From Candidatus Zhuqueibacterota bacterium (GTDB lineage Bacteria > Zhuqueibacterota > Zhuqueibacteria > Zhuqueibacterales > Zhuqueibacteraceae), in contig QEVD01000013.1 of the NCBI GenBank assembly GCA_003576975.1, positions 1 to 32,564 of the forward strand: a stretch of DNA of 32,564 nucleotides, read 5' to 3'. Shown here piece by piece: positions 6,712 to 31,316 of this stretch (positions within the stretch are counted from its first letter, which is position 1; the number at the start of each line of letters is the position of its first letter). Position numbers and translations under genes: made by a program. The notes under the pieces were generated by a model that worked only from the letters and a program-made list of their open reading frames with translations, was not told where the DNA came from and searched no databases.

Positions 6712-6824
6712 AAAGCTCCTCCACAGGTTGCAGCAGTGCATTGAGGTTAATTGGAAAACAACCTGATTATCCAACACAAATTGAATGGTCGTTGAAAGGT
6801 AGGCGTTGCAGTTGCGGGCAATAT

Positions 6825-12445: not shown

Positions 12446-13849
12446 TCATGGCAACAGCTTCCACAACGCCGTCAGGTCCGCATCAGCCGTCGTTTTCCGG
12501 CATCCTGCAAACACGGCCTCGGACAGCGCCAGCATACCCTCGACTTTTTGCGCAGCCTCCGCATGAAAATGCTTGAGGTATTTGTACGCTTGCTTTCGAA
12601 TGAGCAAATCTGCCAAAAACCACAGCACCACCTCCGCCGGCACCAGCGCTTTTGCGGCATATCCTGCAATAAAATGACGGACAATGTCATGCCGCTGCGG
12701 TTGCGCAAGACGATTCTGGGTTTCCAGGTAGTATAGGGATGAAAGAAAATTTGCCAGATCACAGGCCGGCTGGCCCATGCGCAAGCTGTCGAAATCGATC
12801 AGCGCCAGGTCGTCACCATGTATAAAAATATGGTTCAAGCGAAAGGTACCGTGCAACAAGACAGTGGACGACTCATCCCACGGCACCGCCTCAAGCTGAT
12901 CGAAGAGCCGCTGCAATCTTGGTTGCAGGTTGGGATAAGCTGCGGCGATTTTTTGTATGACGTTCTGGACGTCGGCCAGCTCGCCCGCGCGCGTAACATT
13001 TCTTTTAACCCGCATGCGTGCGCGGTGAAAATCTGCCAACATCCCTCCGACGGCCGGTATCACCCGCGCCAAATCGATTTCGGCAAGCACACACTCCAGA
13101 TTTTTACCGGGAATTTCTTCGATAAAAACCGTTGCGCTACTCGCCTCCCAAGCCAGGGCTCGAGGCAAACGCGCGGGCAGATATTTTTCATTTCCGGACC
13201 ACGCTTGACGCATCGCCACCAGATCATCGTACTGTCGCCTGGCCTTTTCTGCGCCCGCCAACTGTTTGGCAATGAACGAAATTTCTTTCGACAAGCTCGG
13301 CGCTGATTCTGTTGTCATTTTGATCCGGCAGCGCGTCGTGCAACGTTTAGTCGGAACGTAACGCAGAATCTCCGTTTTCGCCTCCTGTACTTCCCACGCT
13401 TTGCCTTCGAGCACGCCGTTGGCAATCTCATGCAGATGCATTGCAGCCCACCGATGCAGTTCCGCTTCGGTAAGCAGATGCAACTTCTCGTCGTTGGGAA
13501 ATGCCACCACAATCATCTCGGCTTCCGGAACTAGCGCAACCGTGTGGCCCAAAGCCGGCCGGATTTTGGCTTTCGCCGCCATGTTCTCGTGTTCAGCCGC
13601 AAGCCGCTCACGCGGAACAACATATCCGACATACAGCGGCCGCCGCGCTTCAGGGCCTGAATGTTGCAATTCAATTTCATACAGCACAACCGCCCGTTGC
13701 GATGATTCGCCACGATAGAGGATCTCAACCTGAGCGATCGTGCCGGCAATTTCGTTTTCATCCCACAGATAGCGCGGCAGATTTTCTTTGAGCCAGTGGG
13801 TGTTGAGGGCCAGGGGCTGAGATGAATATAGATTTGCGAGCTTGTTCAT
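12446..13849 (-). CDS. APH-fold protein A, catalytic Asp replaced by Thr
   Basis: This 467-residue protein has the aminoglycoside-phosphotransferase/choline-kinase fold pattern. The C-lobe has HGTFRLNHIF at about 333-342 and LALIDFDS at about 348-355, followed by PACDLANFL. The Brenner loop of active members is HxDxxxxN; here the Asp position is Thr, while the DFD metal site is kept. The N-lobe segment reads LRYVPTKRCTTRC...ISFIAKQL, with a plausible ATP lysine in IAKQ. An earlier segment (ILYRGESSQRAVVLYEIELQH) resembles a degenerate copy of the same strand pair. It precedes the sensor kinase gene by 28 bp. It could be a pseudokinase or use another catalytic residue. It is a paralogue of the four genes at 16717-21174 and 25329-26438. 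Confidence 0.82.
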   Translation of the reverse strand: MNKLANLYSSQPLALNTHWLKENLPRYLWDENEIAGTIAQVEILYRGESSQRAVVLYEIELQHSGPEARRPLYVGYVVPRERLAAEHENMAAKAKIRPALGHTVALVPEAEMIVVAFPNDEKLHLLTEAELHRWAAMHLHEIANGVLEGKAWEVQEAKTEILRYVPTKRCTTRCRIKMTTESAPSLSKEISFIAKQLAGAEKARRQYDDLVAMRQAWSGNEKYLPARLPRALAWEASSATVFIEEIPGKNLECVLAEIDLARVIPAVGGMLADFHRARMRVKRNVTRAGELADVQNVIQKIAAAYPNLQPRLQRLFDQLEAVPWDESSTVLLHGTFRLNHIFIHGDDLALIDFDSLRMGQPACDLANFLSSLYYLETQNRLAQPQRHDIVRHFIAGYAAKALVPAEVVLWFLADLLIRKQAYKYLKHFHAEAAQKVEGMLALSEAVFAGCRKTTADADLTALWKLLP

Positions 13850-14201
13850 GTTCGGCTATCTAATCCGCCAGTTTTTCCAGTAAACTATCGCCTCCATCCG
13901 TGGCAAAAATAGTCCAGCAGACAGCAACAGCGCAGCGGATGAAATGCTTTTATCCGTTGCGCTGTTTCGCGCCACTGGAAAAAACTTGTTGCATACACGG
14001 AGAATCTCAACTTTCAAAATCTACGCCAGATTTCAGACAAGATGAAATCCGAAGCTCTTCGAGCAGCGTTGAAGACTTCGCCCACAGAAGCAGAACTGCC
14101 ACAGAAAGAAAAAGCCTTTTCGGTGGGATTTCATTTGTATGGGCGAAACACTTTCAGTCCCGCCGCTGCAGGATTATTCCAACTTTGATAAGCTAATTGC
14201 C
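13850..14201. other. Intergenic region with hairpins, 352 bp
   Basis: No gene is seen. The region separates the glycosyltransferase group from the APH/two-component group and contains the nested hairpin described at 13871-13984. A further pair of 9-base inverted repeats, ATGAAATCC (14042-14050) and GGATTTCAT (14126-14134), lies closer to the glycosyltransferase stop codon. The promoter for the downstream genes would be expected here, but I cannot point to one. Confidence 0.6.
13871..13984 (-). terminator. Nested strong hairpin, putative transcription terminator
   Basis: The inner arms AACAGCGCAGCGGAT (13926-13940) and ATCCGTTGCGCTGTT (13952-13966) pair over 15 positions with one G-T wobble, and the neighbouring AAA and TTT extend the stem, leaving a small loop. 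Outer arms TTTTTCCAGT (13872-13881) and ACTGGAAAAA (13974-13983) enclose it. It lies downstream of the glycosyltransferase at 14202 and upstream of the APH-fold gene at 13849. No T-run follows the inner stem directly on the minus strand, so termination is inferred from position and stem strength; a dispersed palindromic element is an alternative. Confidence 0.5.
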
Positions 14202-15404
14202 CTATTCACGTTTTCTTCTTGACGATTCATCCAGGATCGTTTCATAGACCCCCAGCCAATCGCTGAATTCCCGTGCAGGCGTCATCGCGGAGACGGTTGC
14301 AGCAGCGTTGGCTGCAAGACGTTCCCGCAATGCCGGGTTCTCCATCACCTCGACGAGGGCTTGGGTGATTTCTTCCGACGATCCCGGGTTAACCAACAAG
14401 CCATTTTTATGGTCACGAATGATTTCCGGAATCGCACCAGCGCGGCTGCCAATGATCACTTTTTTCATCGTCATGGCTTCCAGCATGGAAAGCGGACAGC
14501 CTTCAGAGAACAATGAGGGAAAGACCAAAACGTCAAAAAGCTGTAAATAGTCAGCCATACGGTCCGATGGAATTTTCCCGGTAATAACAGTGCGCTGCTG
14601 CAAACCGTAGTCGTGCAGCATTTGCAGGTGCGGCTGCCGGTCATCCTCGCTGAAGAAATCTCCTGCCAGCAGTAGACTGAAATCAAAACGATTGCCGATA
14701 TCAGCCAGGGCTTTGAAGAGATAAACCAGACCTTTCTTATATCGAAACAGCCCGGCGGTACCAATAACTGTACCCTTGAGATTCAATTCGGGACGCGCTT
14801 GCGGCCGCAGCCGCGTGAGATCGACCGAATTGAGAATCGTTTTGGCCTTGCCAGCAATCGGCGTGATCGCGCGATCGGCTAAATCCGTCAAGCTCGTGGC
14901 TACCGAAGTGACATAGTCGGCGTTTTCCAACGACGAGCGAATGAACGGCAGGCGCAGCGGGTCAAAGGCATACTTGCCAATGTCATTGCCGCGGATCGAA
15001 GCGATCATCTTCACGCCGTGCAGCCGCCCGACCAGTCCCGCGACAAAAGCCGCGGGGTAAAGAAAAAACGCATGTAAGACGTCATAATGATAACGCTGCT
15101 GAAAATGTTCGAGCGCGTGAAACATCTCGCGATTGTAGCGCGTCAAGACCTCGCCATCCACAAAGGCAACGCCCTCTTCGCGTTTGGGATGAAAAACTTT
15201 GACACGATGCACGAGCACCTCGCCCTCCTGCGTGCTCGAACAGCTTTCATCAAACGGCAACGGTGTGGGATGTTTTTGCAGCGCGACCACGTGAACCTGC
15301 ATGCCCCGGCTTGCCAAAATATTTGCCACGCGAAACGCCGAATGTCCGACTCCGCCGACTTGCGGCGGATACTGGCCAGTAACGATGCAGGTTTTTATTT
15401 TCAT
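14202..15404 (-). CDS. GT4-type glycosyltransferase
   Basis: This is a retaining, GT-B fold glycosyltransferase of 400 residues. The N-terminal half has the Gly-rich acceptor loop GQYPPQVGGVG (residues 10-20). The C-terminal half has a GTAGLFRYKKGL segment and the EX7E-like motif in EGCPLSMLEAMTMKKVIIG, followed by AGAIPEII and NGLLVNPGS, which bind the nucleotide sugar in this family. It starts 62 bp after the previous glycosyltransferase gene and is the last gene before the hairpin at 13871-13984. It probably adds a sugar in a polysaccharide or glycolipid pathway. The donor and acceptor cannot be told. Confidence 0.92.
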   Translation of the reverse strand: MKIKTCIVTGQYPPQVGGVGHSAFRVANILASRGMQVHVVALQKHPTPLPFDESCSSTQEGEVLVHRVKVFHPKREEGVAFVDGEVLTRYNREMFHALEHFQQRYHYDVLHAFFLYPAAFVAGLVGRLHGVKMIASIRGNDIGKYAFDPLRLPFIRSSLENADYVTSVATSLTDLADRAITPIAGKAKTILNSVDLTRLRPQARPELNLKGTVIGTAGLFRYKKGLVYLFKALADIGNRFDFSLLLAGDFFSEDDRQPHLQMLHDYGLQQRTVITGKIPSDRMADYLQLFDVLVFPSLFSEGCPLSMLEAMTMKKVIIGSRAGAIPEIIRDHKNGLLVNPGSSEEITQALVEVMENPALRERLAANAAATVSAMTPAREFSDWLGVYETILDESSRRKRE

Positions 15405-15466
15405 GGTACTTTCAAGTCTTGTGATTATTGGAGCGAGATACGTAAAACGTAAGTCGTCATAGCGCT

Positions 15467-16720
15467 TTACGCTTTACACTTTATGCTTTCAGCAATCTGC
15501 ACCACCTGCCGCGCATTGCTGTCCCACGTTCGTTCGGTTTCCACCCACGCGCGGGCATTTTCACCGAGGCGGCTGCACAGCGGTGAATCGCTCACAAGCT
15601 GCGCGAGCGCGGCTTGCAGCGCCGCGATATTTCCAGGCTCGAACAACACACCGGTTTCGCCGTTGGCGATCACTTCTTCCACCTGGCCGATTCGTCCGCC
15701 AACCACCGGTTTGCCCATCGCCATGTACTCAAAAATTTTGATGGGCGAGTAATAAAAATTTTCGCTGGGAATGTACGGCGCGACGGCAATGTCCATCGCC
15801 GCGATGTAACGCGGGATGTCGTCATAAGGCACATTGCCGGTAAACGTCACTGCGCCGTTCAAATCGTGCATTTGCGCATAATTCTCCAACTGCGTCCGGC
15901 CTGGCCCATCGCCGACGATCAGCAAATGCGCATTGGGTGCCGTAGTGTGCAACGCGCGAAATGCGGCGAGCAATGTTTCGGTGCCATGCCACGGCTTGAG
16001 GCTGCCGACGAAACCGATGACCCGCTTGCCTTCGAGTTGATGCCGCGCCCGCACGCTGTGATCGCCGCGCGCTTTGGCAAAGCGCTGCGGATCGACCGAA
16101 TTGGGCAAAATCTGAATGCGTGAGGGCGGCACGCCGCATGAAATCACAAATTCCTGCAACTGCCGCGAGACCACGATGACCTGATCGGCGTCGCGAAAAA
16201 TGCGGCGCTCGGTTTCTGCCGCCAGATCTTTCATTTCCATGCCGCGCGTTTTTTCCTGCTCGTACGCCAACGGCGCATTCACTTCCAAAATATGCGGCAC
16301 ACTAAGCTCGCGCGCCAGTCGGATGCCGGCGGCAGCGAACAGCGTGTAACGTTCATAAATAAAATCAACCGGGTGCGCGCGCAGATATTCACGGACTTTT
16401 TCGTACAGGGTCAAATTGTAGAGCAAATTGCGCAACTCCTGGCGGACGCGCGTTTTCATGCCCAAAAACTCGTCGAGCGCTTCCAGCTCTTGCGCAACGA
16501 GCAGATGCCGCTCTGCCGCAGGAACGGGCAGCAATGCCACGCTTTCATCAAGCACCTCCCTCACCCTTGCGTCTCCCAGCTCTTCGATTGCCGGTGAAAC
16601 GATAGAAACCGCATGGCCGGCTTTGCGCAGCGCAGCCACCATTTCGCGCACGTGGATGGAGGCGCCTTTGTAGCCAAAAATGGGAACGCCAAAATCGGCG
16701 CTGATATAAGCAATGTTCAT
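15467..16720 (-). CDS. GT4-type glycosyltransferase
   Basis: This is a second GT-B fold glycosyltransferase, of different sequence from its neighbour. The true start is taken as the ATG at 16720, giving MNIAYISADFGVPIFGYKG, because it overlaps the stop of the GHKL-APH fusion gene by 4 bases (ATGA); a longer in-frame extension would overlap that gene by 50 bases. Key segments are FGYKGASIHVREM near the start, IGFVGSLKPWHG in the middle, and FYYSPIKIFEYMAMGKPVVGG with GVLFEPGN near the C-terminus. The protein is about 417 residues, normal for the family. The overlap predicts that it is co-translated with the fusion protein and may work with it. Confidence 0.92.
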   Translation of the reverse strand: MNIAYISADFGVPIFGYKGASIHVREMVAALRKAGHAVSIVSPAIEELGDARVREVLDESVALLPVPAAERHLLVAQELEALDEFLGMKTRVRQELRNLLYNLTLYEKVREYLRAHPVDFIYERYTLFAAAGIRLARELSVPHILEVNAPLAYEQEKTRGMEMKDLAAETERRIFRDADQVIVVSRQLQEFVISCGVPPSRIQILPNSVDPQRFAKARGDHSVRARHQLEGKRVIGFVGSLKPWHGTETLLAAFRALHTTAPNAHLLIVGDGPGRTQLENYAQMHDLNGAVTFTGNVPYDDIPRYIAAMDIAVAPYIPSENFYYSPIKIFEYMAMGKPVVGGRIGQVEEVIANGETGVLFEPGNIAALQAALAQLVSDSPLCSRLGENARAWVETERTWDSNARQVVQIAESIKCKA

Positions 16721-18258
16721 AACGCTTGTTCGCATTGTCGCAGTAACGCGTCCACGCCCGCTTCCCACTTTTTCCCGGCTTGTTCAAAAACCTGAGGCAG
16801 GCGTCGAAGCAACGCGTCGATCATGAAAAACGGCAAGTCTTCCTGCCACGCCGCCGGCGCGTTGGCAAAATAAGCTTCCAGAAAAACCTTGCGGCCGGCA
16901 TAATAAAAATCCGGATCCGCTTTTTTGCGAAGTACGTAGAATCGCAACAAATCAGCCAGAAAACCGCCGAGATCAAATCCTGGATGAGAGTACCGGCATT
17001 TGTCAAAGCGATAGAAGTAGAATCGGCCGTCGTCATATAGGATCGAACGCCATTCTAATGCGCCATGAATGGGAACCCGTTCATAACTTCTCAGCGTGGC
17101 GAGGCGTGCCGAAAGATGATCATAAAGTTGCTGAGCCCGCTCGGCCAGCCGCGGGCTGGCTTGCGCCAATTTAGCCAGGACCATTTCCCCCTCTGAACGA
17201 TGCTCTGCAAGCACGTCCTCCAAGCCATCGTCGTCCTTCATGACAATCATACACTGGTGCCAGGCGCGCAAGCTGTTGGCAACCATGTGGATGACCTTCG
17301 CGACTTCTTGAAAATCAAATTGATTTTGCAGATACTCTTGCAGGCCCATCGCGGGGTTGAAATTGAAGAGCACTAGCGAGGGATGCTTGAAAACCGCCAC
17401 GGGTGGCGGAATGTGGATGCCGGTTTTGCCTTCCAACAGCTGCATGTAGAGCTGTCCGGCCACGGAAAACTCGCCTGCGGCAGCATGCTCCGGCGACAGT
17501 CTTCCAGCTAAGATGAATTGGCCTACTGCTTCTGATTCAGCCTTGCGATACCCGAGAACATATTTGATCTCTGGCCGATCCTCGAACTGCTGCTCAGGCA
17601 TGTCAATGCGACAGGACGCAAGTGTCGCTTTATTCTCTTGAAACCAGGCCAACTCCGCTGCCAAAAAGGATTTCATGAATTCTTCGTCGCCTGCCAGCCC
17701 GAGGGCGGAATCTTCCCTCGCCATAAGAGCTGTTCCAGACGCTTGCGAGCACAAGAAACGAATAAGCAGCGTGCGGCCGCCGTGGGCATAACTAATGATT
17801 GATTTTGTTCGGTTAAAATATACAAAACCTGAGCCGCCATGCGTAAAATAATGTTCATTGCCGTTAAAACGGTGAAGAATGCCTTGGACATCGAAACCAT
17901 CTCCTTCATCGGAAATGGCGACGACGGTACCGGTGTTGGTGGCGACAACCTCCACAGTAATTTGCCTGGCCGGGTCTTTTCGGTTTCCCCATTTGTACGC
18001 GTTGCCAAGACCTTTCTTCAGGGGATAGATGAGATCGCGGATCAATTGATCCGATGGAGTGTTTGCGAATCGCTTTGCCAGCGCACGATTGAGCAGCGGC
18101 AATAGGTTGTCCGGCGTCTGCCCGCGAATAACGAGACGCGCCTCGTCCAGTGAAGCGAACAGCGGATCAGTCGGATCGTTTGAACATACTGACAACATGT
18201 TCCCTGAAGCGCTGATCTCAGCTAGCATTTGCTCCCTGGTGTAATTCAAAGCTATCAT
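16717..18258 (-). CDS. GHKL ATPase / APH-fold fusion protein B
   Basis: This 513-residue protein appears to join two domains. Residues about 70-170 look like an RsbW/anti-sigma-type HATPase: an N-box GLGNAYKWGN (83-92), G1 SDEGDGFD (116-123) and a G2-like THGGSGFVYFNR (139-150). Residues about 200-513 look like an APH-type C-lobe: YERVPIHGALEW with His398 of the Brenner loop, then FYFYRFDKC, with Arg-Phe-Asp (417-419) in place of Asp-Phe-Asp, then HPGFDLGGFLADLL. The catalytic Asp position is Ala, so the C-terminal half is probably not a working phosphotransferase. It lies 37 bp after APH-fold protein C and overlaps a glycosyltransferase gene. The GHKL call rests on motifs only; I know of no described protein with this arrangement. 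Confidence 0.75.
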   Translation of the reverse strand: MIALNYTREQMLAEISASGNMLSVCSNDPTDPLFASLDEARLVIRGQTPDNLLPLLNRALAKRFANTPSDQLIRDLIYPLKKGLGNAYKWGNRKDPARQITVEVVATNTGTVVAISDEGDGFDVQGILHRFNGNEHYFTHGGSGFVYFNRTKSIISYAHGGRTLLIRFLCSQASGTALMAREDSALGLAGDEEFMKSFLAAELAWFQENKATLASCRIDMPEQQFEDRPEIKYVLGYRKAESEAVGQFILAGRLSPEHAAAGEFSVAGQLYMQLLEGKTGIHIPPPVAVFKHPSLVLFNFNPAMGLQEYLQNQFDFQEVAKVIHMVANSLRAWHQCMIVMKDDDGLEDVLAEHRSEGEMVLAKLAQASPRLAERAQQLYDHLSARLATLRSYERVPIHGALEWRSILYDDGRFYFYRFDKCRYSHPGFDLGGFLADLLRFYVLRKKADPDFYYAGRKVFLEAYFANAPAAWQEDLPFFMIDALLRRLPQVFEQAGKKWEAGVDALLRQCEQAL

Positions 18259-18295
18259 ATCTTGCGCTTTTCATTCCCGCGTTGTGTTTTATGCC

Positions 18296-19696
18296 TTATG
18301 CTTTTCTTTTCGCAACCTCAAGCCACTCTGCAATCAGATCAAAGGCCAGCGGCATGTTAGCTAGAGCTTTCACTTCAGAGCGCTTGAGCGACGAATGCAT
18401 TTTCCCCAAAAGAAACGCAACGAGATACCAAGCCAGGCGCCGCCGATCACAATGCCAGGAAACTCGTTGTTGATATTCAGCCCAAAAGCTTTCGAGACTC
18501 TCACGGATCGGCGTCGCCGGAATGCCGTCACTCACAATCAAATAAAGAATGGAAGCAAAGAATTCCGCGACATCATAAAGCGGATCCCCGCGTGAAATCG
18601 AATCGAAATCCACCAACGCCAACTCTTCCTCGCGGCACAAAAGCTGCGCCACTTTAAACGAGCCGTGAATCGTCGCAACCGTGGAATGATTGGCGATCTC
18701 GGGCGCCAACTCCGCCAAGGTTTTCGCCGCCGCCGTCAAAACCGCCTGCTTCTCCGGCAGGAATGCCGCAATATCATCGGCATCGCCGTAGGCGTTTTCA
18801 ATTGCCTTTGCCGGCGCGGGGCCATCGGCAAGAGGCACATGAGGAATTTCAACCTGGTGCAAGGCCGCCAGCATCGCCGCAATTTTGGGCATGAACCCGG
18901 AGTGCGGCAGACTGACCCAGCCGCGCTCGCGCATAACAGAACCGAACTTCGTTCCTTGCCACGCCTGTTGCCAAAGCGTATTCGCGGTATCGAGATTGGC
19001 AATCGGCGCCGGAATATTCAGCACGCCGTTGTTGCACGCTGGGCTGGCGCAGACGGCGCTCAGGACGTCGTAAACATAACGGCTGTTCGCGCTGTTGTAG
19101 GTTTTGCTGTAAAAAACAATCTGCCGTTGCTGGTTCACCGCGCCAGCCACCACGAACTCGTAGCGCAAAACGCAACGCCGCGTCGGCATGTATTTGATTT
19201 TGTGGCAAGTCACTTCGCGGCACGTCCACTCGCGCGACAATCCGAAATTGGGCAGCCGCTCTTCAATCTGCCGCTTGACAAATTCCGGCTCCAAGAGCTG
19301 GCCGAGATACGGCATCTTAACATCATAAGGAAAGGCGTGCAACTCCATGTTCATTTCCTGCCACGCGCTAACGGGCTTCCAAAAATCACAGCCCGGCCAT
19401 TGCAGCGGTTTTTCTTTCAGCACCGCTTTATGATTTTCGCCGTTGGCCGACATCTTGGCAAAAATCCATTGATCGTACGAACGGCGGTCGCGATCGTGAC
19501 CGGACACGCGATAAGTGATGTTGCACTCTTTGCCCGGCCGGTGCTGCAATCGGCTGATTTGGCAATCATTTACTTTCAAGCCGCGGCTGGGATATTGGTT
19601 GCGAAAATAGTCCTCGAATGCCGCCGCCATGATTTTAGTGTCGGTTGCCTGCTGCAATTGCGGCAGCTTATGGTCATGAATCGTGCCGTTTGTCAT
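18296..19696 (-). CDS. APH-fold protein C with repeated N-lobe motif
   Basis: This 466-residue APH-fold protein is a close paralogue of its upstream neighbour. The C-lobe has TIHGSFKVAQLL (His344) and LALVDFDSISRGDPLYDVAEF; the catalytic Asp position is Ser and the usual Asn is Gln, while DFD is kept. The N-lobe pattern occurs twice: RPGKECNITYR...QWIFAKMS (about 53-82) and MPTRRCVLRYE...IVFYSKTY (about 170-200), each with a strand-final Lys (81 and 198). The C-terminal motif SWHCDRRRLAWYLVAF is shared with protein D. The start codon has no clear ribosome-binding site. It may be a pseudokinase or a kinase with altered chemistry. It is flanked by protein D (41 bp) and the GHKL fusion (37 bp). 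Confidence 0.82.
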   Translation of the reverse strand: MTNGTIHDHKLPQLQQATDTKIMAAAFEDYFRNQYPSRGLKVNDCQISRLQHRPGKECNITYRVSGHDRDRRSYDQWIFAKMSANGENHKAVLKEKPLQWPGCDFWKPVSAWQEMNMELHAFPYDVKMPYLGQLLEPEFVKRQIEERLPNFGLSREWTCREVTCHKIKYMPTRRCVLRYEFVVAGAVNQQRQIVFYSKTYNSANSRYVYDVLSAVCASPACNNGVLNIPAPIANLDTANTLWQQAWQGTKFGSVMRERGWVSLPHSGFMPKIAAMLAALHQVEIPHVPLADGPAPAKAIENAYGDADDIAAFLPEKQAVLTAAAKTLAELAPEIANHSTVATIHGSFKVAQLLCREEELALVDFDSISRGDPLYDVAEFFASILYLIVSDGIPATPIRESLESFWAEYQQRVSWHCDRRRLAWYLVAFLLGKMHSSLKRSEVKALANMPLAFDLIAEWLEVAKRKA

Positions 19697-19737
19697 AATA
19701 ATTTTCGTTCGTGTTGTGAGTCAAAGGCTGTGACGAT

Positions 19738-21174
19738 TTACATCGCGCCAACGGTGTTGAGCCAATCTTCGCAAATGGCTTTGCCGGCCGTTTCGATTTG
19801 CTGCAAAGCGCGGCGCTCAAGATTTTTGGTGGAGGAATAGAATTTCGTCATCAAAAAAGCCAGAGCATACCAGCCGATGCGGCGGCGGTCGCACGCCCAG
19901 GGCACTTGCTCGGCGTAGCTGCGATAAAACGCCTCAGAGGCAACGGCGATGCGTTCGCTGTCCAGGCCGCGCGTCAATCCCATGTACTGCAAAGAGGCAA
20001 TCAGCTCGGCGACATCGTGAATCGGATCGCCCAACGTCACCGCATCAAAATCCACCAGCGCCAGCTCGTTGCCGCGCGCCAGCATTTGTTCGATCCGGCA
20101 GGCGCCGTGAATCGGCACAGCCGGCATTTCCTGTTTGTCAAAAACAGGCTTCGTCGCGTGCAACAGCTCGAGCACGCGGCTCACCAACGCCTGCTGTTGC
20201 GGCCACAATCTGAGCAGCTTCGCCGCGTCTTCATCGGCTTTCTCCAAAACCTCGTTGAGATCAGGAGCGGCATCGAAGCCATTGGCCGGGCTGCGATGGA
20301 ACGAGGCCAGAACCAAAGCGACGCGCCGGAAAATATCCTGCCAATCATACTGATCAATGACATCGAGCAAAGCATGTCCCGGCCACTCTTCCTGCCAGAA
20401 CGTGTGCAAACCGTCAAAGTGCAGCAGCGGGCGGGGAATGTTGACAGCCGCACTCTTCACGGTCAATTGCTCGTAAGCCGATTTGAGCATGTCAAAATGG
20501 TAGCGGCTATTCCCATTATTATAAATTTTGCAGTAGAACGTTTTTTCGTGTGATTTGCCGGACGGGTCGAGCAGATTGACGTGATAGCGCAAGACGCAGC
20601 GTTTGCTCGGCATGAATTTGATGCGATCGTAATAGAATTCGGGGCAACGCCATTGGGCTGCCGAGCCGTTGGCAGACACGCCGAAGGCCTCGAGATTGGC
20701 TTCAACTTGTTGGCGGACATAAGCCGAATCCACGGACTGCGGCAGCGTTTCCAAATCCGGATCCTGCGGAAAAACCCAGAGAATCATGTTCAAATCGCGC
20801 CAAAAGCTAATGGGCGGCAAGGGCCGCAAAAACTCATGCGCTGAGGGCGTTGGTTTAAGCCCGGCCAGCGCTTTTTCAAAGCGTTCTTCTTCGGTACCGG
20901 CGGGCACCGTGCGGCCATAAATCCATTCGTCGGTTTCGGCGCCGGAAACGTGACGGAGCGCCAGACGATAGAGCACGCCGCAATGCTTTCCCGGCCGATA
21001 GTAGACTTTTTCAATGGCGCATTTCATCACTTGCCATTTGGGATCGACGCCCGAAGCGTGCAAATAGCGCGTGAATTGCTCCGGCATGGCGTTGACATCC
21101 ATGACCGTAGCAACTAATGGAAGCGTGGGGTCGTCGAACAAGCCCAGCCGGCTGTTGTACGAAGGTGTTGACAT
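19738..21174 (-). CDS. APH-fold protein D with repeated N-lobe motif
   Basis: This is a 478-residue APH-fold protein, starting at MSTPSYNSRLGLFDD because GGAG lies seven bases before that ATG; an upstream TTG is less likely. Two N-lobe-like units are visible: RPGKHCGVLYR...EWIYGRTV (about 60-90, Arg88 at the lysine position) and MPSKRCVLRYH...KTFYCKIY (about 188-218, Lys216). The C-lobe has PIHGACRIEQML (His356) and LALVDFDAVTLGDPIHDVAEL. The Brenner Asp is Ala and the Asn is Gln, but DFD is intact. The WACDRRRIGWYALAF segment matches protein C, so the two likely arose by tandem duplication. It is separated by 231 bp from the ABC exporter gene upstream, where a hairpin lies. Confidence 0.82.
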   Translation of the reverse strand: MSTPSYNSRLGLFDDPTLPLVATVMDVNAMPEQFTRYLHASGVDPKWQVMKCAIEKVYYRPGKHCGVLYRLALRHVSGAETDEWIYGRTVPAGTEEERFEKALAGLKPTPSAHEFLRPLPPISFWRDLNMILWVFPQDPDLETLPQSVDSAYVRQQVEANLEAFGVSANGSAAQWRCPEFYYDRIKFMPSKRCVLRYHVNLLDPSGKSHEKTFYCKIYNNGNSRYHFDMLKSAYEQLTVKSAAVNIPRPLLHFDGLHTFWQEEWPGHALLDVIDQYDWQDIFRRVALVLASFHRSPANGFDAAPDLNEVLEKADEDAAKLLRLWPQQQALVSRVLELLHATKPVFDKQEMPAVPIHGACRIEQMLARGNELALVDFDAVTLGDPIHDVAELIASLQYMGLTRGLDSERIAVASEAFYRSYAEQVPWACDRRRIGWYALAFLMTKFYSSTKNLERRALQQIETAGKAICEDWLNTVGAM

Positions 21175-21300
21175 GATGATCTCCATATCCAAAGTTGCGC
21201 GTGCTCAAGTTGCTTAAGGTGATGAAGAGTGCTTGCTCAAAAACTTTTGAGAAAGCAAAACGACTTCAGACAAAATTATTGAGAAGCATTAGGCAGGATT

Positions 21301-21339
21301 ATTTGACCAGAATAATTTTAAATCATTCTGCCGTCAAAT
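21301..21339 (-). repeat. Bulged hairpin in the exporter/APH gap
   Basis: ATTTGACCAGAAT (21301-21313) pairs with ATTCTG plus GTCAAAT (21325-21330 and 21333-21339), with a 2-base CC bulge and an 11-base A/T-rich loop. It lies in the 231-bp gap after the ABC exporter gene. Neighbouring bases to about 21390 carry similar words (TTTTCTG, TTCTGCC, TTTTGCC), as in degenerate tandem units. It may be an attenuator, a weak terminator or a remnant of a dispersed repeat. Confidence 0.5.
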
Positions 21340-21405
21340 TATTTTGCCATGCCGCTTTTAAAAATTTTCTGTCCAACATTTTTCTGCCATTATGAAATGC
21401 AAAGG

Positions 21406-23325
21406 CTAACTCGCCACGGCCTGCTCTTCACGCAAAACCGCGGTTTCGTTTTCAATCATGAGGGCTGCGGTTGCCGCTTCCAGCGGCGGCCGTTGCTGCA
21501 GCTCGTAAAGCTCACGATATTCCCGATTCGTGCGCAGCAATTCTTCGTGCGTGCCATAGGCCGCGAGCTTGCCCGCTTCCAGCACTAAAATTTTATCCGC
21601 GTTGGCAATGGTGGAAAATTTGTGCGCGATGATGAACGTCGTTCTCCGATTCGTCAGTTCATCCAGGGCTTCGTGAATTTGCGCCTCGGCTTTGGCGTCC
21701 AATGCGGTGGCCGGCTCATCCAAAATCAAAATCGGGGTGTTGCGAATAATGGCGCGCGCGATGTTGAGGCGCTGCCGCTGGCCGCCGGAAAGATTTTCGC
21801 CGCCTTCTTCGATCACGGTGTCGTAGCCCTCCGGCATTTGCATGATGAAATCATGCGCATGCGCCAGCTTGGCGGCGTTAATGATTTCCTCCTCGGTGGC
21901 ATCGACTTTACCGAAGCCGATGTTTTCGCGGACGGTTTTGTTGAAGAGCTTGGCGTCTTGCATCAAGATTGTGACTTGATCACGCAGCGATTTAAGGGTG
22001 ATTTCGCGGAGATTGTGGCCATCGATCAGGATTTGCCCTTTTTGCGGATCGTAGAAACGCAAAAGCATGCTGATGAGCGTTGATTTGCCCGCGCCGCTGT
22101 GGCCGACGAGCGCAACCGTCTCGCCCGGCTCCGCAGCGAAGCTGAGATTTCTGATAACCTCGACGCCCGGATGATAGCCAAAACTCACCTCGCGAAATTC
22201 GACCCGGCCGGTAAACGGCGGTGCGGGGATGGCGTTGGGCACGTCTTGCATGACCATGTCGCATTCGACCAAATCCAGCAGCCGCTCGCCGGCAACCTGC
22301 GCTTTGGCGACATCGAGCATCATTTCGGCGAACTTGTCGATGGGGCGATAGAGATTGCGCAGATACGCAGCAAACAAAACCAGCGTGCCCGGCAGCAGCA
22401 ATCCATCCAACGCCAGCAGGCCGCCGTAACCGACGACCAAGCACGTGCCGATGGCGGCGAGATTGTCGCTAATGCGCTTAAACAGTTTGGCAAGCCGCCG
22501 CGCTTCGATTTCAGAGTGCAGGCTTTCGCGATTCTCCGAGGCAAAGCGCGCTTGTTGCAAATCTTCGCGGCCATACGCCTGCACCAGCGCCATCGCCGTG
22601 ACGTTTTCGGCGATGATCGAACTGACTTCGGTTTCTTTGTTGCGTTTTTTCGCGGTGGCTTCTTTCACATCGCTGCCCATGCGGCGATTGATGAAATACA
22701 AAACCGGGATGATGCTGAACGCGAGCAGCGCCAGCCGCCATTCCAGCACTAGCATCAAAGCCATGTGGCTGACAATCATCACGACGCGATAGATGAAATT
22801 GTCCGGCAACTGCACGAGAATGATTTTCGCGTCGTCGATGTCCGAGGTCAGCCGGTAAATCAGATCGCCCGAGCGCGCCGATTCCTGGAACGACAGCGAC
22901 AGCCGCTGCAAATGGATGAAAACGCGCTCACGAATGTCGGTGGCGATCATCTCGCCGGCGCTGAGCAACCCGACTTTGTGCACCGTGTTGGCGAGGCTCT
23001 CGAAAATCCGTAACAGCAAAAACGCCAGCGCCAGCGCCACAAGCAGAACGAGCGGATCCGTGCCGAGCCATTGCGTCACAAAGGCTGCCTGGGGCGGCAG
23101 CGGCGTTTTCAGAATCACGTAATCCAGAATGAGCTTCAGCGGCCACGGAATGAGCAGCGCAATGAGAATAGTGAGCAGCAGGCCGGTATAAACTTTGGCA
23201 AAAAGCTTCCAGTGCTTTTTGTAGTGGCGCCCGAATACTTTATACAAGCGCATAAGCGTGCGAAAGCTGACACGCTTGCGCTCCTTTTTCGATTTTGAGG
23301 TTTTGGATTTCTCCTTACTGCTCAT
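21406..23325 (-). CDS. MsbA-like ABC exporter half-transporter 1
   Basis: This is an ABC half-transporter of 639 residues: a Lys-rich cytoplasmic N-terminus, about six transmembrane helices (about 45-340), and an ATPase domain with Walker A GHSGAGKST (about 409-417), Q-loop MQDAKLF, signature LSGGQRQRLNIARA, Walker B ILILDEPATALD and switch histidine in IIAHKFS. The glutamate after the Walker B Asp is present, so this ATPase site looks canonical. The ATG at 23325 is preceded by GAGG; a TTG one codon earlier is not needed. The gene follows its paralogue by 69 bp, and the pair likely forms a heterodimer. Among glycosyltransferases, it could flip or export a lipid-linked glycan or a peptide. Confidence 0.95.
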   Translation of the reverse strand: MSSKEKSKTSKSKKERKRVSFRTLMRLYKVFGRHYKKHWKLFAKVYTGLLLTILIALLIPWPLKLILDYVILKTPLPPQAAFVTQWLGTDPLVLLVALALAFLLLRIFESLANTVHKVGLLSAGEMIATDIRERVFIHLQRLSLSFQESARSGDLIYRLTSDIDDAKIILVQLPDNFIYRVVMIVSHMALMLVLEWRLALLAFSIIPVLYFINRRMGSDVKEATAKKRNKETEVSSIIAENVTAMALVQAYGREDLQQARFASENRESLHSEIEARRLAKLFKRISDNLAAIGTCLVVGYGGLLALDGLLLPGTLVLFAAYLRNLYRPIDKFAEMMLDVAKAQVAGERLLDLVECDMVMQDVPNAIPAPPFTGRVEFREVSFGYHPGVEVIRNLSFAAEPGETVALVGHSGAGKSTLISMLLRFYDPQKGQILIDGHNLREITLKSLRDQVTILMQDAKLFNKTVRENIGFGKVDATEEEIINAAKLAHAHDFIMQMPEGYDTVIEEGGENLSGGQRQRLNIARAIIRNTPILILDEPATALDAKAEAQIHEALDELTNRRTTFIIAHKFSTIANADKILVLEAGKLAAYGTHEELLRTNREYRELYELQQRPPLEAATAALMIENETAVLREEQAVAS

Positions 23326-23394
23326 CAATAAGCCTCGATGTTATGCGCATTCGTAGTAACGTCGTTCGTCGTGATGCGTTCAGGCAGAGAGTCT

Positions 23395-25332
23395 TCAAGA
23401 ACTGGCCAGCGTTGCCACAGCCTGCGATTCAAATTGTCCATTCTTGCCGTTGGCAATAACCTCCTCACGCGCGATTTCCTTTTGCCGGCCGAATTGCAGT
23501 TCATACAACTCGCGATATTGCGGGCTTTCGCGCAGGAGTTGTTCGTGCGAACCATAATGCGCCACCTCGCCCTCTTCCAGCAAGAGTATTTTTTCGGCGG
23601 CCGCGATGGTGGAAAATTTATGGGCGATGATGAACGTTGTCTTGCCGCGCGTGAGCCGGTGGATGGCCGCGTTGATTTGCGCTTCGGCGCGCGCATCCAA
23701 ACCCGTCACCGGTTCGTCGAGAATCATCAGCGGCGTGTTGCGGATAATGGCGCGCGCGATGTTGATGCGCTGTTTCTGGCCGCCGGAAAGATTGTCGCCG
23801 CCCTCGTACATCATGGTGTCGTAGCCTTCCGGCATGCGCATGATGAAATCGTGCGCCTTGGCCAGTTTGGCCGCCTCAATGATGTCTTCTTCGGTCGCGC
23901 CGGATTTGCCAAAGGCAATATTCTCGCGCACGGTTTGGCGAAACAGCTTGGCTTCCTGCAAGACGATCGTCATCTGATCGCGCAAGGATTTGAGCGTGAA
24001 TTGGCGCAGATCCTGGCCATCGATCAAAATCTGGCCCTGCTGCGGATCGTAAAAACGCAGCAGCAAACTGATGAGTGTTGATTTTCCCGCGCCACTGTGG
24101 CCGACCAGGGCCACGGTTTCACCCGGCTCGACTGTGAAATTCAGATTCTTTAGAACCTCGCGGCCTTTTTTATAAGCAAAGCTGACGTTCTTGAATTCGA
24201 CGCGGCCCTGAAACGCCGGCGCCGGCGCGGCCTTCGGATCATCCTGCACGATCATGTCGTTTTCGACCAGCTCGAGCAAGCGCTCGCCGGAGACTTGCGA
24301 CTTGGCAATGCCGAGAAAAAGCTCGCTGAACTTCTCAAAGATGCCGTAGATGTCGCGCATGTAAGCCATGAACACGACCAGCGTTCCCGGCAGAATGGCG
24401 CCCTCGAGCGCATAGAGGCCGCCGAAGTAAAGCACGCCGGCGGCGCTCAAGGCCACCAAAAATTCCACAATACGGGCGAACGTCCGGCTCAAGCTCAGGG
24501 CGCGTAGCTGCGCCTGCAAACTTTCCTTATTGCCGGAGGTGAAGCGCGCGCGTTCGGTTTCTTCGCGGCCATAGGCCTGCACCAGCGCCATAGCCGTAAC
24601 GTTTTCGGCAATAATCGAAGCGACCTTGCCTTCCTGCTTGCGCTTTTTCGTGATGGCAGTGCGCATGCCGCCGCCGAAATACTTGGTGAAAAAATAAATC
24701 AGCGGCATGGTGCACAGCCCGATGAGGCCGAGGCGCCAGTCGAGCGCCAGCATCAAACCGGCATAAACCGCGAAGCTCACCACGCGGTTGGTCAAGTCCT
24801 GTGGAAAATCGATTAGCACCTTTTTCATCTCTTTCACATCGGCGGTCAAGAGATAAATCAGGTTGCCGGATTGCATCGACTCGTGAAAAGACAACGACAA
24901 TCGCTGCAAATGCGAGAACACCCGCTCACGAATGTCGGCATTGATGCGGTCGCCGGTGGCGGAAACCCAAAATTTGTTAAAGTACGAAAACGTCGCTTCC
25001 AGAAACGCGATGACGACGATGGACAGCGCGAGCAACAGCAGGAGCAGCCGGGGATTGCCGGAGTAGAGCGGATTGAGAAATGAAAAAAAATCCGGCAGCG
25101 GTTGTTTCAGAATGATGTGATCCAAAATCAGCTTGAGCGGCCACGGCGTCAACACCATTACGCCGATGGTGCCGAACAGGCACAAATAGGCGACCGTCAG
25201 GATTTTCCAGTATTTCTTGTAATGACGGCCAAATACTTTGTATATCCTGACCAGCCCTTTAAAATTGAGCTTTTCGCGCTCATTTTTGCCACCCATTTGC
25301 CGTAATTTTGAGAGGTTGTCGAACAAACTCAT
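23395..25332 (-). CDS. MsbA-like ABC exporter half-transporter 2
   Basis: This 645-residue half-transporter is a paralogue of the next gene; both begin with a shared segment (RIYKVFGRHYKKYWKIL here, RLYKVFGRHYKKHWKLF in the other). It has about six transmembrane helices, then Walker A GHSGAGKST, Q-loop LQEAKLF, signature LSGGQKQRINIARA, Walker B LMILDEPVTGLD and IIAHKFST. All catalytic residues are present, so neither partner shows the degenerate site common in asymmetric heterodimeric exporters. Its ATG overlaps the stop of the APH-fold kinase gene by 4 bases (ATGA), which couples translation of the exporter to that kinase. The substrate is unknown. Confidence 0.95.
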   Translation of the reverse strand: MSLFDNLSKLRQMGGKNEREKLNFKGLVRIYKVFGRHYKKYWKILTVAYLCLFGTIGVMVLTPWPLKLILDHIILKQPLPDFFSFLNPLYSGNPRLLLLLLALSIVVIAFLEATFSYFNKFWVSATGDRINADIRERVFSHLQRLSLSFHESMQSGNLIYLLTADVKEMKKVLIDFPQDLTNRVVSFAVYAGLMLALDWRLGLIGLCTMPLIYFFTKYFGGGMRTAITKKRKQEGKVASIIAENVTAMALVQAYGREETERARFTSGNKESLQAQLRALSLSRTFARIVEFLVALSAAGVLYFGGLYALEGAILPGTLVVFMAYMRDIYGIFEKFSELFLGIAKSQVSGERLLELVENDMIVQDDPKAAPAPAFQGRVEFKNVSFAYKKGREVLKNLNFTVEPGETVALVGHSGAGKSTLISLLLRFYDPQQGQILIDGQDLRQFTLKSLRDQMTIVLQEAKLFRQTVRENIAFGKSGATEEDIIEAAKLAKAHDFIMRMPEGYDTMMYEGGDNLSGGQKQRINIARAIIRNTPLMILDEPVTGLDARAEAQINAAIHRLTRGKTTFIIAHKFSTIAAAEKILLLEEGEVAHYGSHEQLLRESPQYRELYELQFGRQKEIAREEVIANGKNGQFESQAVATLASS

Positions 25333-26438
25333 CTGTGTGCCTCGTCTCGAACATCCCCGTTGAGCAATTCCGCCACCGCCGCATCAATTAATGAACGGCG
25401 GAGACCGACGGAGCGACAAGACTCTGCAACCGTCTCAACCGCCGCGATGCCCTGTTCAATTAAATATTGCGCCTGCTCATGCCAGCCTTCGGCTTGCAAG
25501 CGAAAACTTTTGCAGGCGCGGCGCAAATAACTCAATCCTTCATACAGCGGAACTCTGGCGGCGATGCCGCGATCCATCAAGGAAAAATATTCCTCCAGAA
25601 AAACCTGAATCAGCTCGGTAATCACGGGATTCGTACGAGCCTTGCTCTTCATGAACACCAGCAAATTTCCCAGATCGGTGGCGGGATCGCCATAACTCAG
25701 CACATCGAAGTCGATCAACCAGGTATGGCCGTTTTCCAAATGAACCTGGCCGAGATGGAAATCGGCATGCACCGGCGCGAGTTCGATATCTCCGAACGCG
25801 GCTTCGCTATCAAAGGCTTGCTCCACCAGGTAATTGATTGACGGCGCCAGTTCCGGACAAGCACTTGCCAAAACCTCGTGGCCCGGATGACAGCGCAATA
25901 AATGTTCTTTGACGGTGAACAGGCGGCTGGGAACGATTGGGCATTTGTGCAATTTCGCCAGGGCGCGGGCTAACTGGCGGAAATGCTCTTTTTGCGCCGA
26001 TTGCTTCAACAGCATCTTGAGCGACAGCCCCGGCACTTCTTCCTGCAAGAGCATGGAAAGTGAGGGCAGGAATTCGATCGGCTCCGGAATGCTGATGCCA
26101 TCGGCAGCCGTGCGCGAAAAGCCGCTCGACCAAAGTTGCCGCATATTATCGAACAGCAAAATTCCCAGATTAGTGTTGAGCACTTTGCCGATGACGCGCC
26201 ATTGCACGTCTGCGCCGCGCTCCGGATCAAAGGCAGAGATATGATAACGCAGCACGCAGCGGTAGGTATGGCGTTGAAGGACTTCGAGGCGGAAGTCCTT
26301 GACCTGCAGATTATGTCCAAAGCGCTGTTTGAGCTTCGCAGCGAAGACGGCTCTCATCCGGTCTTGGTCCAACGCGTTTTGGATGGCGCGCAACGTATCT
26401 TCGCGCTCACGTTCATAAGGGACTGTCGCCACAGTCAT
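25329..26438 (-). CDS. APH-fold kinase E, canonical catalytic loop
   Basis: This 369-residue protein is the only one of the five APH-fold proteins that keeps the catalytic Asp. The loop reads PVHADFHLGQ (His224, Asp226), with Gln at the usual Asn position, followed by TWLIDFDVLSYGDPATDLGN (DFD at 243-245). The N-lobe occurs once: QRHTYRCVLRYHI and WRVIGKVL with a likely ATP-binding Lys85. GGGAG precedes the ATG. It should phosphorylate a small hydroxylated molecule or sugar; nothing points to antibiotic resistance. The stop overlaps the exporter start, so kinase and exporter are probably made together. It lies 113 bp after the DUF5666-like gene. Confidence 0.85.
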   Translation of the reverse strand: MTVATVPYEREREDTLRAIQNALDQDRMRAVFAAKLKQRFGHNLQVKDFRLEVLQRHTYRCVLRYHISAFDPERGADVQWRVIGKVLNTNLGILLFDNMRQLWSSGFSRTAADGISIPEPIEFLPSLSMLLQEEVPGLSLKMLLKQSAQKEHFRQLARALAKLHKCPIVPSRLFTVKEHLLRCHPGHEVLASACPELAPSINYLVEQAFDSEAAFGDIELAPVHADFHLGQVHLENGHTWLIDFDVLSYGDPATDLGNLLVFMKSKARTNPVITELIQVFLEEYFSLMDRGIAARVPLYEGLSYLRRACKSFRLQAEGWHEQAQYLIEQGIAAVETVAESCRSVGLRRSLIDAAVAELLNGDVRDEAHR

Positions 26439-26551: not shown

Positions 26552-27016
26552 TCAATCATCGTAAAACATGGTCCTTTCATCAACGACTACGGTAAAACCG
26601 AGCACTTCCAAAGCCCTTTTCTCACAATCAACCCTGTCGATCTCGCCCTGCAGTTCTGCAACGTTGAAGCCCTGGGGATCTTTCATCTTGATTTTCTCCG
26701 GCACAAACTTCCCGGATTCTAGATGCTTGCCGATTAGCTTCACTCGATCTCCGGCCTTTAGGCCATGCAAGCTGATTTTATTGCGCAGCAAGTCTTTGAT
26801 CGTGACTGCGCCTGGCAATGCGATTTCGTGATCGAGGATGCACAAGGCGCTTTGTTCATATGCGATGCGCTGTATCACACTCTCAATTACCGCCTCCTCG
26901 GCTGCACTGTTCAGGGTAATCGAGTGCGCCACAAATACACCACCGTCTCCGGGCTTCCCCTTCATCTTCACCTTCTGTCCGGCCTTGCAGTCATTGAAAC
27001 CGGTGAACTCCGGCAT
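26552..27016 (-). CDS. Cytoplasmic DUF5666-like protein
   Basis: This is a 154-residue protein of unknown function starting at MPEFTGFND; GGAGG lies eight bases upstream of this ATG, which decides it over an ATG six codons earlier. There is no signal peptide or membrane segment. It shows three short beta-rich modules of the DUF5666 type: AGQKVKMKGKPGDGGVFVAH, then AGDRVKLIGKHLESGKFVPEKI and ELQGEIDRVDCEKRALEVLG. This pattern matches the exported protein at 3606-4196, but this one appears cytosolic. It sits between a glycosyltransferase (66 bp upstream) and the canonical APH-fold kinase. No biochemical role can be assigned. Confidence 0.7.
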   Translation of the reverse strand: MPEFTGFNDCKAGQKVKMKGKPGDGGVFVAHSITLNSAAEEAVIESVIQRIAYEQSALCILDHEIALPGAVTIKDLLRNKISLHGLKAGDRVKLIGKHLESGKFVPEKIKMKDPQGFNVAELQGEIDRVDCEKRALEVLGFTVVVDERTMFYDD

Positions 27017-27082
27017 GAAAATCATCCTCCACATGAATTGATGTACACAGGTCTGAGTTGGGCAGAGCCCCCACGATCCGCA

Positions 27083-28285: not shown

Positions 28286-28365
28286 GAAGTTTTCTCTATG
28301 AGGACTCGAATACATTGATTTGCAACGAGGCCCTGCTCGTCGATGTCTTGAACAAAAGCCGTTTT

Positions 28366-30797: not shown

Positions 30798-31316
30798 ATG
30801 ATCCCAAAAACCAACGTCGTGTCCGCCATGCTGATACTGGGGCTATCGGCCTCCATGTCAGTGGCGGGAAACCCCTCCGGGTTGACCCGGCAAGATTGCC
30901 GGCAGATTTTTCCAGGCACGAATTCTTCGGAGGCTGTCAGAACACTCGCTTCCGGCGTGCAGTGGACCGAAGCTTGGGAGCGAGGTTCGTGGGGACCAGC
31001 CGAAGAATTCCGCGGCTACATTTTGCTGAAATCCCTGCAACACGAGGGCAAGACGATTACCGTTCTGCTGGGCGTGACGAATACAGGCGTTATTTCCAGC
31101 GCGAAAATTAAAGGCAACGGCGGCGCTGAAGAGGAATTCCTCAGCCAATTTCACGGAAAATCCGTGCGGCAGAATTTTGCCTTGGCGCGGACACCGGAAG
31201 ATCTCTTGTCCGTGCCCGCCAAAATTCGGATGATGCAGGGCAACCTCTCGCTTTCCGAAAGCCTGGTGCAGGCTGTAAACGACATCGCGCTTGCCGCTGT
31301 CAACGTGATGAAGTAG
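30798..31316 (+). CDS. Exported FMN_bind-like protein
   Basis: This 172-residue protein has a signal peptide (VVSAMLILGLSASMSVAG) and GAGGTG upstream of its ATG. The middle resembles the FMN-binding domain of RnfG/NqrC-type proteins: FRGYILLKSLQHEGKTITVL, then LGVTNTGVISSAKIKGNGGA and FLSQFHGKSV, where such proteins have an opening strand, a GxI strand and a QFxGK segment. The flavinylation motif SGATxT is not present; the matching stretch reads QGNLSLSESLVQAVN. It therefore probably lacks covalent FMN. It is followed 213 bp later by a TolC-family lipoprotein in the same direction, with a likely terminator between. The family assignment is moderate. Confidence 0.55.
   Translation: MIPKTNVVSAMLILGLSASMSVAGNPSGLTRQDCRQIFPGTNSSEAVRTLASGVQWTEAWERGSWGPAEEFRGYILLKSLQHEGKTITVLLGVTNTGVISSAKIKGNGGAEEEFLSQFHGKSVRQNFALARTPEDLLSVPAKIRMMQGNLSLSESLVQAVNDIALAAVNVMK

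Follow-up and report, generated by a model that had tools for sequence, protein, structure and literature searches.

Contig QEVD01000013.1 of a “Candidatus Zhuqueibacterota” bacterium (32,564 nucleotides, here called the window and analyzed over its full length) carries five minus-strand genes for proteins related to the APH kinases, K1 to K5, four of which lack the catalytic Asp of the HxDxxxxN loop. A first-pass annotation had placed five APH-like genes here, with Asp in the last loop only and an intact DFD motif in four of the five; all five open reading frames (ORFs) are indeed open, and the loops are exactly as it read them. K1 (12446..13849; 467 amino acids [aa]; ORF, Pfam, and family-profile evidence) has the loop HGTFRLNH (H333-H340, 12830..12853), K3 (18296..19696; 466 aa) has HGSFKVAQ (H344-Q351, 18644..18667), and K4 (19738..21192; 484 aa) has HGACRIEQ (H362-Q369, 20086..20109); all three are APH-like pseudokinases with tandem N-lobes and keep DFD. 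K2 (16717..18258; 513 aa) joins an HATPase_c_2-like (GHKL-type) N-terminal part to an APH-like C-terminal part, with a degenerate loop, HGALEWRS (H398-S405, 17044..17067), and RFD in place of DFD. K5 (25329..26438; 369 aa) is an APH-family kinase that bears the Asp, in the loop HADFHLGQ (H224-Q231, 25746..25769), and also keeps DFD.

The five genes lie in an array of 16 same-strand genes with spacings of −52 to 352 bp. It runs from GTd (28366..29589) and GTc (27083..28315), two GT28 C-terminal-domain glycosyltransferases, through a gene for a 160-aa DUF5666-type protein (26552..27034), K5, the ABC exporters ABC2 (23395..25332, overlapping K5 by 4 bp) and ABC1 (21406..23328, with membrane and ATPase domains matching ABC_membrane and ABC_tran), K4, K3, K2, the family 4 glycosyltransferases GTb (15467..16768, its ORF overlapping K2) and GTa (14202..15404), and K1. 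Beyond K1, the array ends with a sensor histidine kinase (10165..12417), a response regulator with a DNA-binding C terminus (9388..10083; Response_reg plus Trans_reg_C), an HPr-kinase-related P-loop protein (8276..9391; NCBIfam TIGR04352, under the cut-off), and an RtcB-family protein (6825..8210; RtcB, E 8.3e-97); assignments are from Pfam unless otherwise stated. In gene maps of other loci, the histidine kinase stays next to K1, and the DUF5666-type gene (in one or two copies) and the HPr-kinase-related gene are kept in the module. In all maps the longest ORF was taken, which makes the start codons approximate.

Membership of the APH family is clear for four of the proteins: scores against PF01636 were 54.2 bits for K1, 38.3 for K3, 55.3 for K4, and 53.4 for K5 (cut-off, 23.2), and the beta-3 Lys, the catalytic-loop His, and the DxD motif are present in each of them. 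The seven other PF01636 matches in the genome of the window, three of which resemble protein kinases (HRD...DFG), all keep the Asp in translations read by eye, which rules out a chance reading of one loop. Pseudokinases, in published usage, are missing one or more of the Lys, the HRD-Asp, and the DFG-Asp (PMC12599244); here the loss is conserved, with 51 of 52 rows (aligned sequences) of the clade described below being without the Asp. Filing the window proteins under existing families was rejected in three cases. Against the LxmK model (NCBIfam NF038156; cut-off, 315), K1 to K5 scored 39.2, 20.2, 27.1, 32.0, and 36.7 bits; the best spore kinase score was 19.3 bits (K5, TIGR02906), the cut-offs being 172.7 for TIGR02906 and 263.55 for TIGR02904; and no Pfam SelO row was returned for any of the five at E ≤ 1.

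K1, K3, and K4 fall within a 52-row clade, here called the dead clade, that spans KSB1, Calditrichota, Myxococcota, Planctomycetota, and Rokubacteria and that includes two subclades, cR and cF, absent from the window. The position of the catalytic Asp is held by Ala in 19 rows, Ser in 18, Thr in 12, Gly in 2, and Asp in 1. Around it, the residues of the ATP and metal sites have been kept, as the first-pass annotation had supposed from the window: with K4 numbering, which is used throughout, His362, Asp381, and Asp383 are present in 52/52 rows and Lys222 in 50/51 (one Arg), while position 369 is Gln in 30 rows and His in 22. The substitution itself is conserved across species and sorted by subclade (cF, Ser 9/9; K1, Thr or Ser 13/13; K3, Thr or Ser 7/7; cR, Ala or Gly 8/8; K4, Ala in 13 of 15, with one Thr and one Asp), so the loop represents a set of fixed states and not random scatter. 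Two residues after the Asp position, each of the 51 clade rows lacking the Asp has Arg or Lys, the single row with Asp has Gln, and K5 has His in 15/15 rows; the equivalent residue in protein kinases, Lys168 of PKA, makes contact with the gamma phosphate. The lone Asp row (L119:3568-4287) is a fragment of a K4-like gene in the Rokubacteriota genome G086, where the two halves of that gene lie in different frames. The Asp is kept in 15/15 K5 rows and in 9/9 rows of K5', a second Asp-bearing kinase seen in other genomes.

Trees were built from profile matches of at least 75 bits that reached model position 370; the careful trees used the columns of N-lobe 2 and of the C-lobe, minus those of the catalytic loop. 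Left out below 75 bits were L084:6130, L085:5364, and L137:2-421, all with Asp, together with L137:479-1912 and L120:4237 (HGS); three truncated ORFs, the same-species copies L082/L083, and the truncated duplicate L113:19170 were also left out. Removal of nine long or peripheral rows from a 103-row tree, one of them Asp-less (L134:12646, HGM) and eight with Asp, gave a 94-row tree, to which six Planctomycete rows were added for a 100-row tree; one dropped row, L133:18304 (HGD), had stood beside cF in the 103-row tree on a very long branch. The dead clade lay on one side of a single branch in both smaller sets, with ultrafast bootstrap (UFBoot)/SH-like approximate likelihood ratio test (SH-aLRT) values of 100/98 for 94 rows and 98/98 for 100 rows, in the latter case also in 100% of 200 bootstrap trees. 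K1, K3, and K4 being in one well-supported clade, their sequences trace to one ancestral loss of the Asp, and the “repeated loss” proposed in the first-pass annotation is not borne out for these three. Each subclade mixes phyla, so that the loss and the multiplication that followed appear older than the spread of the genes.

For the wider family, repeated loss is possible, since distant long relatives also lack the Asp in places. Asp-state changes required numbered 7 with 103 rows, 5 with 94, and 6 with 100. Of 23 Methylomirabilota rows in the first tree, 19 have the Asp and four do not (HGS, HGG, HRS, and HGM); L120:4237, already mentioned as below the score limit, is a fifth Asp-less ORF from that phylum. 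Three of six further long relatives from Planctomycetota have a HAN loop (L158:7953-9359, L159:8635-10014, and L161:447-2738), and an approximately unbiased (AU) test did not reject grouping these rows with the dead clade (p 0.58). All three HAN loci have an ABC transporter and a histidine kinase adjacent, and two have a response regulator as well. Full-length relatives that bear the Asp (e.g., L132:9054, L133:9449, and L120:5328) cover the family profile from roughly position 6 through 410, which shows that the Asp also occurs in the long form.

That long form is predicted to contain two N-lobes. An AlphaFold2 (AF2) model of K4 (mean predicted local distance difference test [pLDDT] score, 91.6) places an extra N-lobe at residues 54-153 (20734..21033), with an FPxD motif near its end, ahead of a second N-lobe at residues 182-281 (20350..20649) that bears the conserved Lys222, the limits being drawn from AF2 secondary structure and hhalign. 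In the dead clade, the FPxD motif is kept nearly throughout (P142, 51/51; D144, 50/51). The two lobes aligned to each other with an hhalign E value of 1.7e-12, a figure that compares parts of the same 34 proteins and is not database calibrated. In a separate VIA summary, a fifth or more of the rows cover K4 residues 141-484 only, which makes it a slight test of the extra N-lobe. By sequence and model, the tandem arrangement points to an internal duplication, apparently new here, and a brief literature search on duplicated N-lobes turned up no bacterial kinase example. With Foldseek, 4u94, which belongs with the mycobacterial maltokinase and glucosamine kinase discussed below, had the best E value (2.9e-11) but a TM score of 0.46 and a root mean square deviation of 13.3 over the whole length; TvaE (8jsu) and LxmK (9dk2/9dk3), whose sequence matches are weak, were among the ten best structural matches.

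The window groups with candidate division KSB1, a phylum that also goes by the name Zhuqueibacterota (PMC11683472). Other profile matches came from Calditrichia/Calditrichaeota, Myxococcales, Planctomycetota, and Rokubacteriota, with one weak match in Deltaproteobacteria that has an HGD loop. A 34-row profile found the family in 10/82 KSB1 genomes at E ≤ 1e-20 and, at E ≤ 1e-40, in 2/40 Calditrichota, 7/95 Methylomirabilota, 1/377 Myxococcota, and 6/392 Planctomycetota genomes, with up to four candidates per genome scored in the last two phyla. Dead-clade rows occur only in G086 among the seven Methylomirabilota, the phylum to which we assume this Rokubacteriota genome belongs, and only in G084 among the six Planctomycetota; the rest are distant long relatives. 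Such a patchy distribution is what a horizontally moving module would give.

Gene neighborhoods are conserved along with the family. Most of the array recurs, often over several contigs, in G001-G004, G006, G008, and G011, and a partial array in G082-G086, which bears out the shared synteny that the first-pass annotation had named as support; among the KSB1 genomes, K2 was present in the recurring arrays of G006 and G081 only. In G005 (78% complete), the set comprises K5, GTb, GTa, K1, and the regulators, without any K3/K4 match, and the stretches read in G001 and G002 have one ABC1/ABC2-type gene, not two. K5-family kinases (E ≤ 7e-136) were found in exactly the 10/82 KSB1 genomes that have the dead clade; among 377 Myxococcota genomes, with up to five candidates per genome scored, the one strong K5 match (2.1e-131) was in the dead-clade genome, and seven others had weak matches (7e-27 to 5e-39). 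The coupling to an intact kinase that had been suspected is therefore seen in these genomes, and “single live kinase” is accurate for the window, while nine other genomes carry K5' as a second one. Two ORFs are fused, both parts being over Pfam cut-offs in each case: a 1076-aa Rokubacteria ORF in which an ABC exporter (13-601) is in frame with a cF pseudokinase (636-1074) and an 834-aa ORF of G006 in which a family 4 glycosyltransferase is in frame with K5 (486-810). These fusions would support physical association of the products, short of proving it. Long Myxococcota ORFs (L112) were rejected as further fusions because they overlap one another and lie in different frames.

Asp-bearing long relatives in the Rokubacteria phylum share these surroundings in part, with an ABC1/ABC2-like exporter in 6/8 loci and GTb/GTc-like genes in 5/8. 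One stretch of that phylum (L134:8189-12636) has three tandem Asp-bearing long APH kinases, with an ABC exporter and a GTc-like gene as neighbors. Extra genes in some KSB1 loci point to an exported, decorated product: a polysaccharide deacetylase, two sulfotransferase ORFs, ATP sulfurylase, adenosine 5'-phosphosulfate (APS) kinase, phosphopantetheinyl transferase, and asparagine synthase in G005; a nonribosomal peptide synthetase (NRPS) ORF in G004; and alginate-export and halogenase-like ORFs in G003. The sulfate-activation genes and sulfotransferase ORFs of the G005 locus (L055:6149-18054) hint at a sulfated product. Two individual ORFs are also worth recording: a Pfam phytase with an FlgD-like sorting tail between the K4 homologue and GTb in G006 (L041:1577-2953) and a 498-aa ORF between the cR and K3 homologues in G001 (L043:14812-16308), which had no Pfam match at E ≤ 0.01. 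A literature search linking KSB1 to phosphotransferases, glycosyltransferases, and ABC transporters together found nothing.

Selection on the genes was estimated by pairwise Nei-Gojobori ratios of nonsynonymous to synonymous substitution rates (dN/dS) between the window and G006. The ratios were 0.247 for K1, 0.227 for K2, 0.129 for K3, 0.116 for K4, and 0.175 for K5, those of K2 and K5 being rough because of high dS (1.41 and 1.03), and neighboring genes gave 0.089 (ABC1), 0.115 (ABC2), and 0.101 (GTa). In the same-species genome G081, all five genes are intact at 97.7-99.8% identity, with dN/dS from 0.05 (K4) to 0.47 (K1) on very few changes. The genes are thus under purifying selection, in line with the selection for which the first-pass annotation had argued, and are conserved across phyla; homologous copies neither carry the Asp in the main nor decay freely.

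K2 may stand apart from the other Asp-less proteins. It had no match to Pfam APH, scored 76 bits against the family profile over residues 260-511, and has at its N terminus an HATPase_c_2 match (E 2.2e-4) of 21.7 bits against a cut-off of 27.4; a Myxococcota relative (L122:281-1906, in G082) exceeds both cut-offs, with 28.1 bits for HATPase_c_2 and 35.1 for APH. Relatives of K2 were found in G081, G006, and G082. In the three rows of the K2 group, the Asp is absent, Asp381 is replaced by Arg (3/3), and the Asp+2 residue is not basic; many columns are invariant between KSB1 and Myxococcota. The best trees set K2 apart, and an AU test did not reject its grouping with the dead clade (p 0.42). The AF2 model of K2, from a 4-row alignment, is weak (pLDDT, 45.1; predicted TM score, 0.34).

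Together, these observations lead us to propose, with a probability of roughly one-half, that K1, K3, and K4 serve as pseudokinase subunits, binding ATP without phosphorylating, in a system for the assembly and export of an envelope glycoconjugate; in such a machine, they would probably have a helper or control function and not that of ordinary kinases. The ancestor would have been a kinase with its N-lobe already duplicated and with an ABC exporter and glycosyltransferases as working neighbors. Once the Asp was lost, the gene would have multiplied into four conserved subclades (K1, K3/K4, cR, and cF). Nucleotide is predicted to be held by Lys222, DxD, and the basic Asp+2 residue so that one conformation is fixed, and the extra N-lobe and the C-lobe may then dock the intact K5, the glycosyltransferases, and the ABC pair in a predicted complex through which product building, phosphorylation (the role predicted for K5), and export would be coupled. 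The family offers both a before and an after: long relatives that bear the Asp, for the most part near ABC and glycosyltransferase genes of these same kinds, and, in other phyla, multiplied descendants without it. The Asp-less members are tightly tied to an Asp-bearing kinase of the genomes that carry them. What pseudokinases contribute to a biosynthesis and export machine can therefore be tested directly, and the proteins needed are probably soluble and of ordinary size.

Several points weigh against this proposal. The nature of the product is predicted from neighbors that differ between genomes. K2 lies outside the core, its full-length relatives being confined to three KSB1 genomes (that of the window included) and one Myxococcota genome, and the dN/dS values of K1 and K2 are above those of the transporters. 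Lys at Asp+2 is already present in 6/10 Asp-bearing long Methylomirabilota rows, which means that the basic residue may be ancestral, with no tie to the loss. The fusion of ABC exporter and pseudokinase is one case, on a contig that also has the frame-split K4-like gene and its fragment with Asp, and indicates association at most.

Other readings of the same evidence differ in what the loss of the Asp meant. The Asp-less proteins could be enzymes with a new ATP-dependent chemistry, such as nucleotidyl transfer or ATP-driven dehydration or condensation, that would retain the sites for ATP and metal, need no catalytic base, and use Arg or Lys at Asp+2 to re-orient the phosphates. The near-invariant Lys, His, and DxD, the basic Asp+2 residue, and the natural-product genes of some loci (the NRPS ORF of G004 and the phosphopantetheinyl transferase, sulfation genes, and asparagine synthase of G005) all fit this, yet K1 to K5 gave no SelO match, and the small residue at the Asp position varies by subclade (Ser, Thr, Ala, or Gly), which fits removal of a function better than a new catalytic residue; we consider such chemistry unlikely, though to be reckoned with. 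Marginally less likely again is a version in which a cross-phylum, tandem-N-lobe APH-fold family, with the signature H-G-[STAG]-x-[RK] and Lys and DxD kept, gave up phosphoryl transfer for a different reaction, also ATP dependent, that acts on a glycoconjugate or a lipopeptide-like product, several specialized paralogues forming an ordered set beside the remaining kinase; if this were true, the locus would be an assembly line built of pseudokinases. We would place still lower the idea that the Asp-less proteins bind and present a substrate, a peptide leader or a glycan. TvaE and KinH are reported to be kinase homologues without activity that work together with a partner enzyme (PMC9415263), and the structural matches to TvaE and LxmK noted above agree with such a role. 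The window itself speaks otherwise: no lyase or flavoprotein family was seen in 23 Pfam-scanned proteins, among which glycosyltransferases and exporters dominate, and a search for precursors of ribosomally synthesized and post-translationally modified peptides (RiPPs), with 128 small frames from six intergenic stretches against 41 loci, gave no convincing conserved small ORF but only three weak overlapping matches at one G006 site, although very divergent precursors would escape it.

Retention of phosphotransfer by means of another base or substrate-assisted catalysis appears improbable. The counted motif residues other than the Asp are nearly all kept, and atypical catalysis survives in some pseudokinases (PMC12599244), whereas these same loci have the Asp in 24/24 rows of K5 and K5', as do 7/7 other PF01636 matches of the genome, which argues for a demand for it wherever kinase activity is to be expected. 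Neutral decay after duplication deserves almost no credence. K2 has also lost the Asp of DFD (Arg in 3/3), and dN/dS against G081 reaches 0.47 for K1 on those very few changes; against this, the ratios versus G006 are 0.12-0.25 for all four Asp-less genes, their frames are intact and conserved across phyla, and K2 keeps its many invariant columns between KSB1 and Myxococcota. For K1, K3, and K4, decay is refuted by the dN/dS values and the residue conservation.

The proposal of pseudokinase subunits in envelope assembly also has to be set against known systems. SelO is an AMPylase with a kinase fold that is without the usual catalytic Asp and keeps its nucleotide-binding residues, and it differs from the window proteins, none of which gave a SelO row. 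APH-fold pseudokinases are already known from spore coats and from RiPP pathways. The bacterial spore kinases (CotS, CotI/YtaA, YutH, and YsxE) have the APH-like (CAK) fold of K1, K3, and K4; several of them are likewise missing the catalytic Asp, which is inferred to have been lost more than once in the group, and some are linked to glycosyltransferases (PMC2860764). The window proteins score far under the cut-offs for CotS and YsxE. They differ further in their duplicated N-lobe, in the pair of ABC exporters, and in having Lys, His, and DxD still in place, whereas motif loss is described as wider in the spore pseudokinases (PMC2860764). TvaE and KinH, APH-like partners without activity in the thioamitide and kintamdin RiPP pathways, together with LxmK, resemble the situation here in combining an APH fold with an inactive paralogue and an active kinase in one biosynthetic locus (PMC9415263); they differ in that no precursor peptide or lyase/decarboxylase partner was found in the window by the small-ORF search and the Pfam scan of 23 proteins and in that the window proteins score 20-39 bits against the LxmK cut-off of 315. 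Mycobacterial maltokinase and glucosamine kinase have an extra N-terminal domain on an APH-like kinase, as the model of K4 appears to. The maltokinase cap, proposed as an anchoring point, is described as cystatin-like and without sequence similarity to known proteins (PMC4306142), while the extra domain of K4 is a recognizable N-lobe copy; maltokinase also has kinase activity and an HGD motif, and K1, K3, and K4 lack the Asp. To judge from the sequences, the window pseudokinases would differ from these known kinds in their duplicated N-lobe, fixed loop, and transporter link.

The left end of the window holds a minus-strand efflux group with its own DUF5666 gene (Pfam): an ABC ATPase (25-750; ABC_tran), which we presume to be MacB-like, an HlyD-family protein (777-2018; HlyD_D23), and an outer membrane efflux protein (2051-3595; OEP). 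Homologues of all four of these left-end genes adjoin the K3 homologue at the Calditrichia locus L113. Upstream of the array, on the plus strand, lies a 172-aa ORF (30798-31316) with no Pfam match at E ≤ 0.01; an Rfam scan of the window gave no matches, and a tRNA scan found none. An asparagine-synthase-like gene on the minus strand (4920-6777) seems to be split, its two frames (5206-6777 and 4920-5237) overlapping and the second of them matching the end of the Pfam Asn-synthase model; an unbroken 607-aa homologue is present in G005 (L055:16231-18054).

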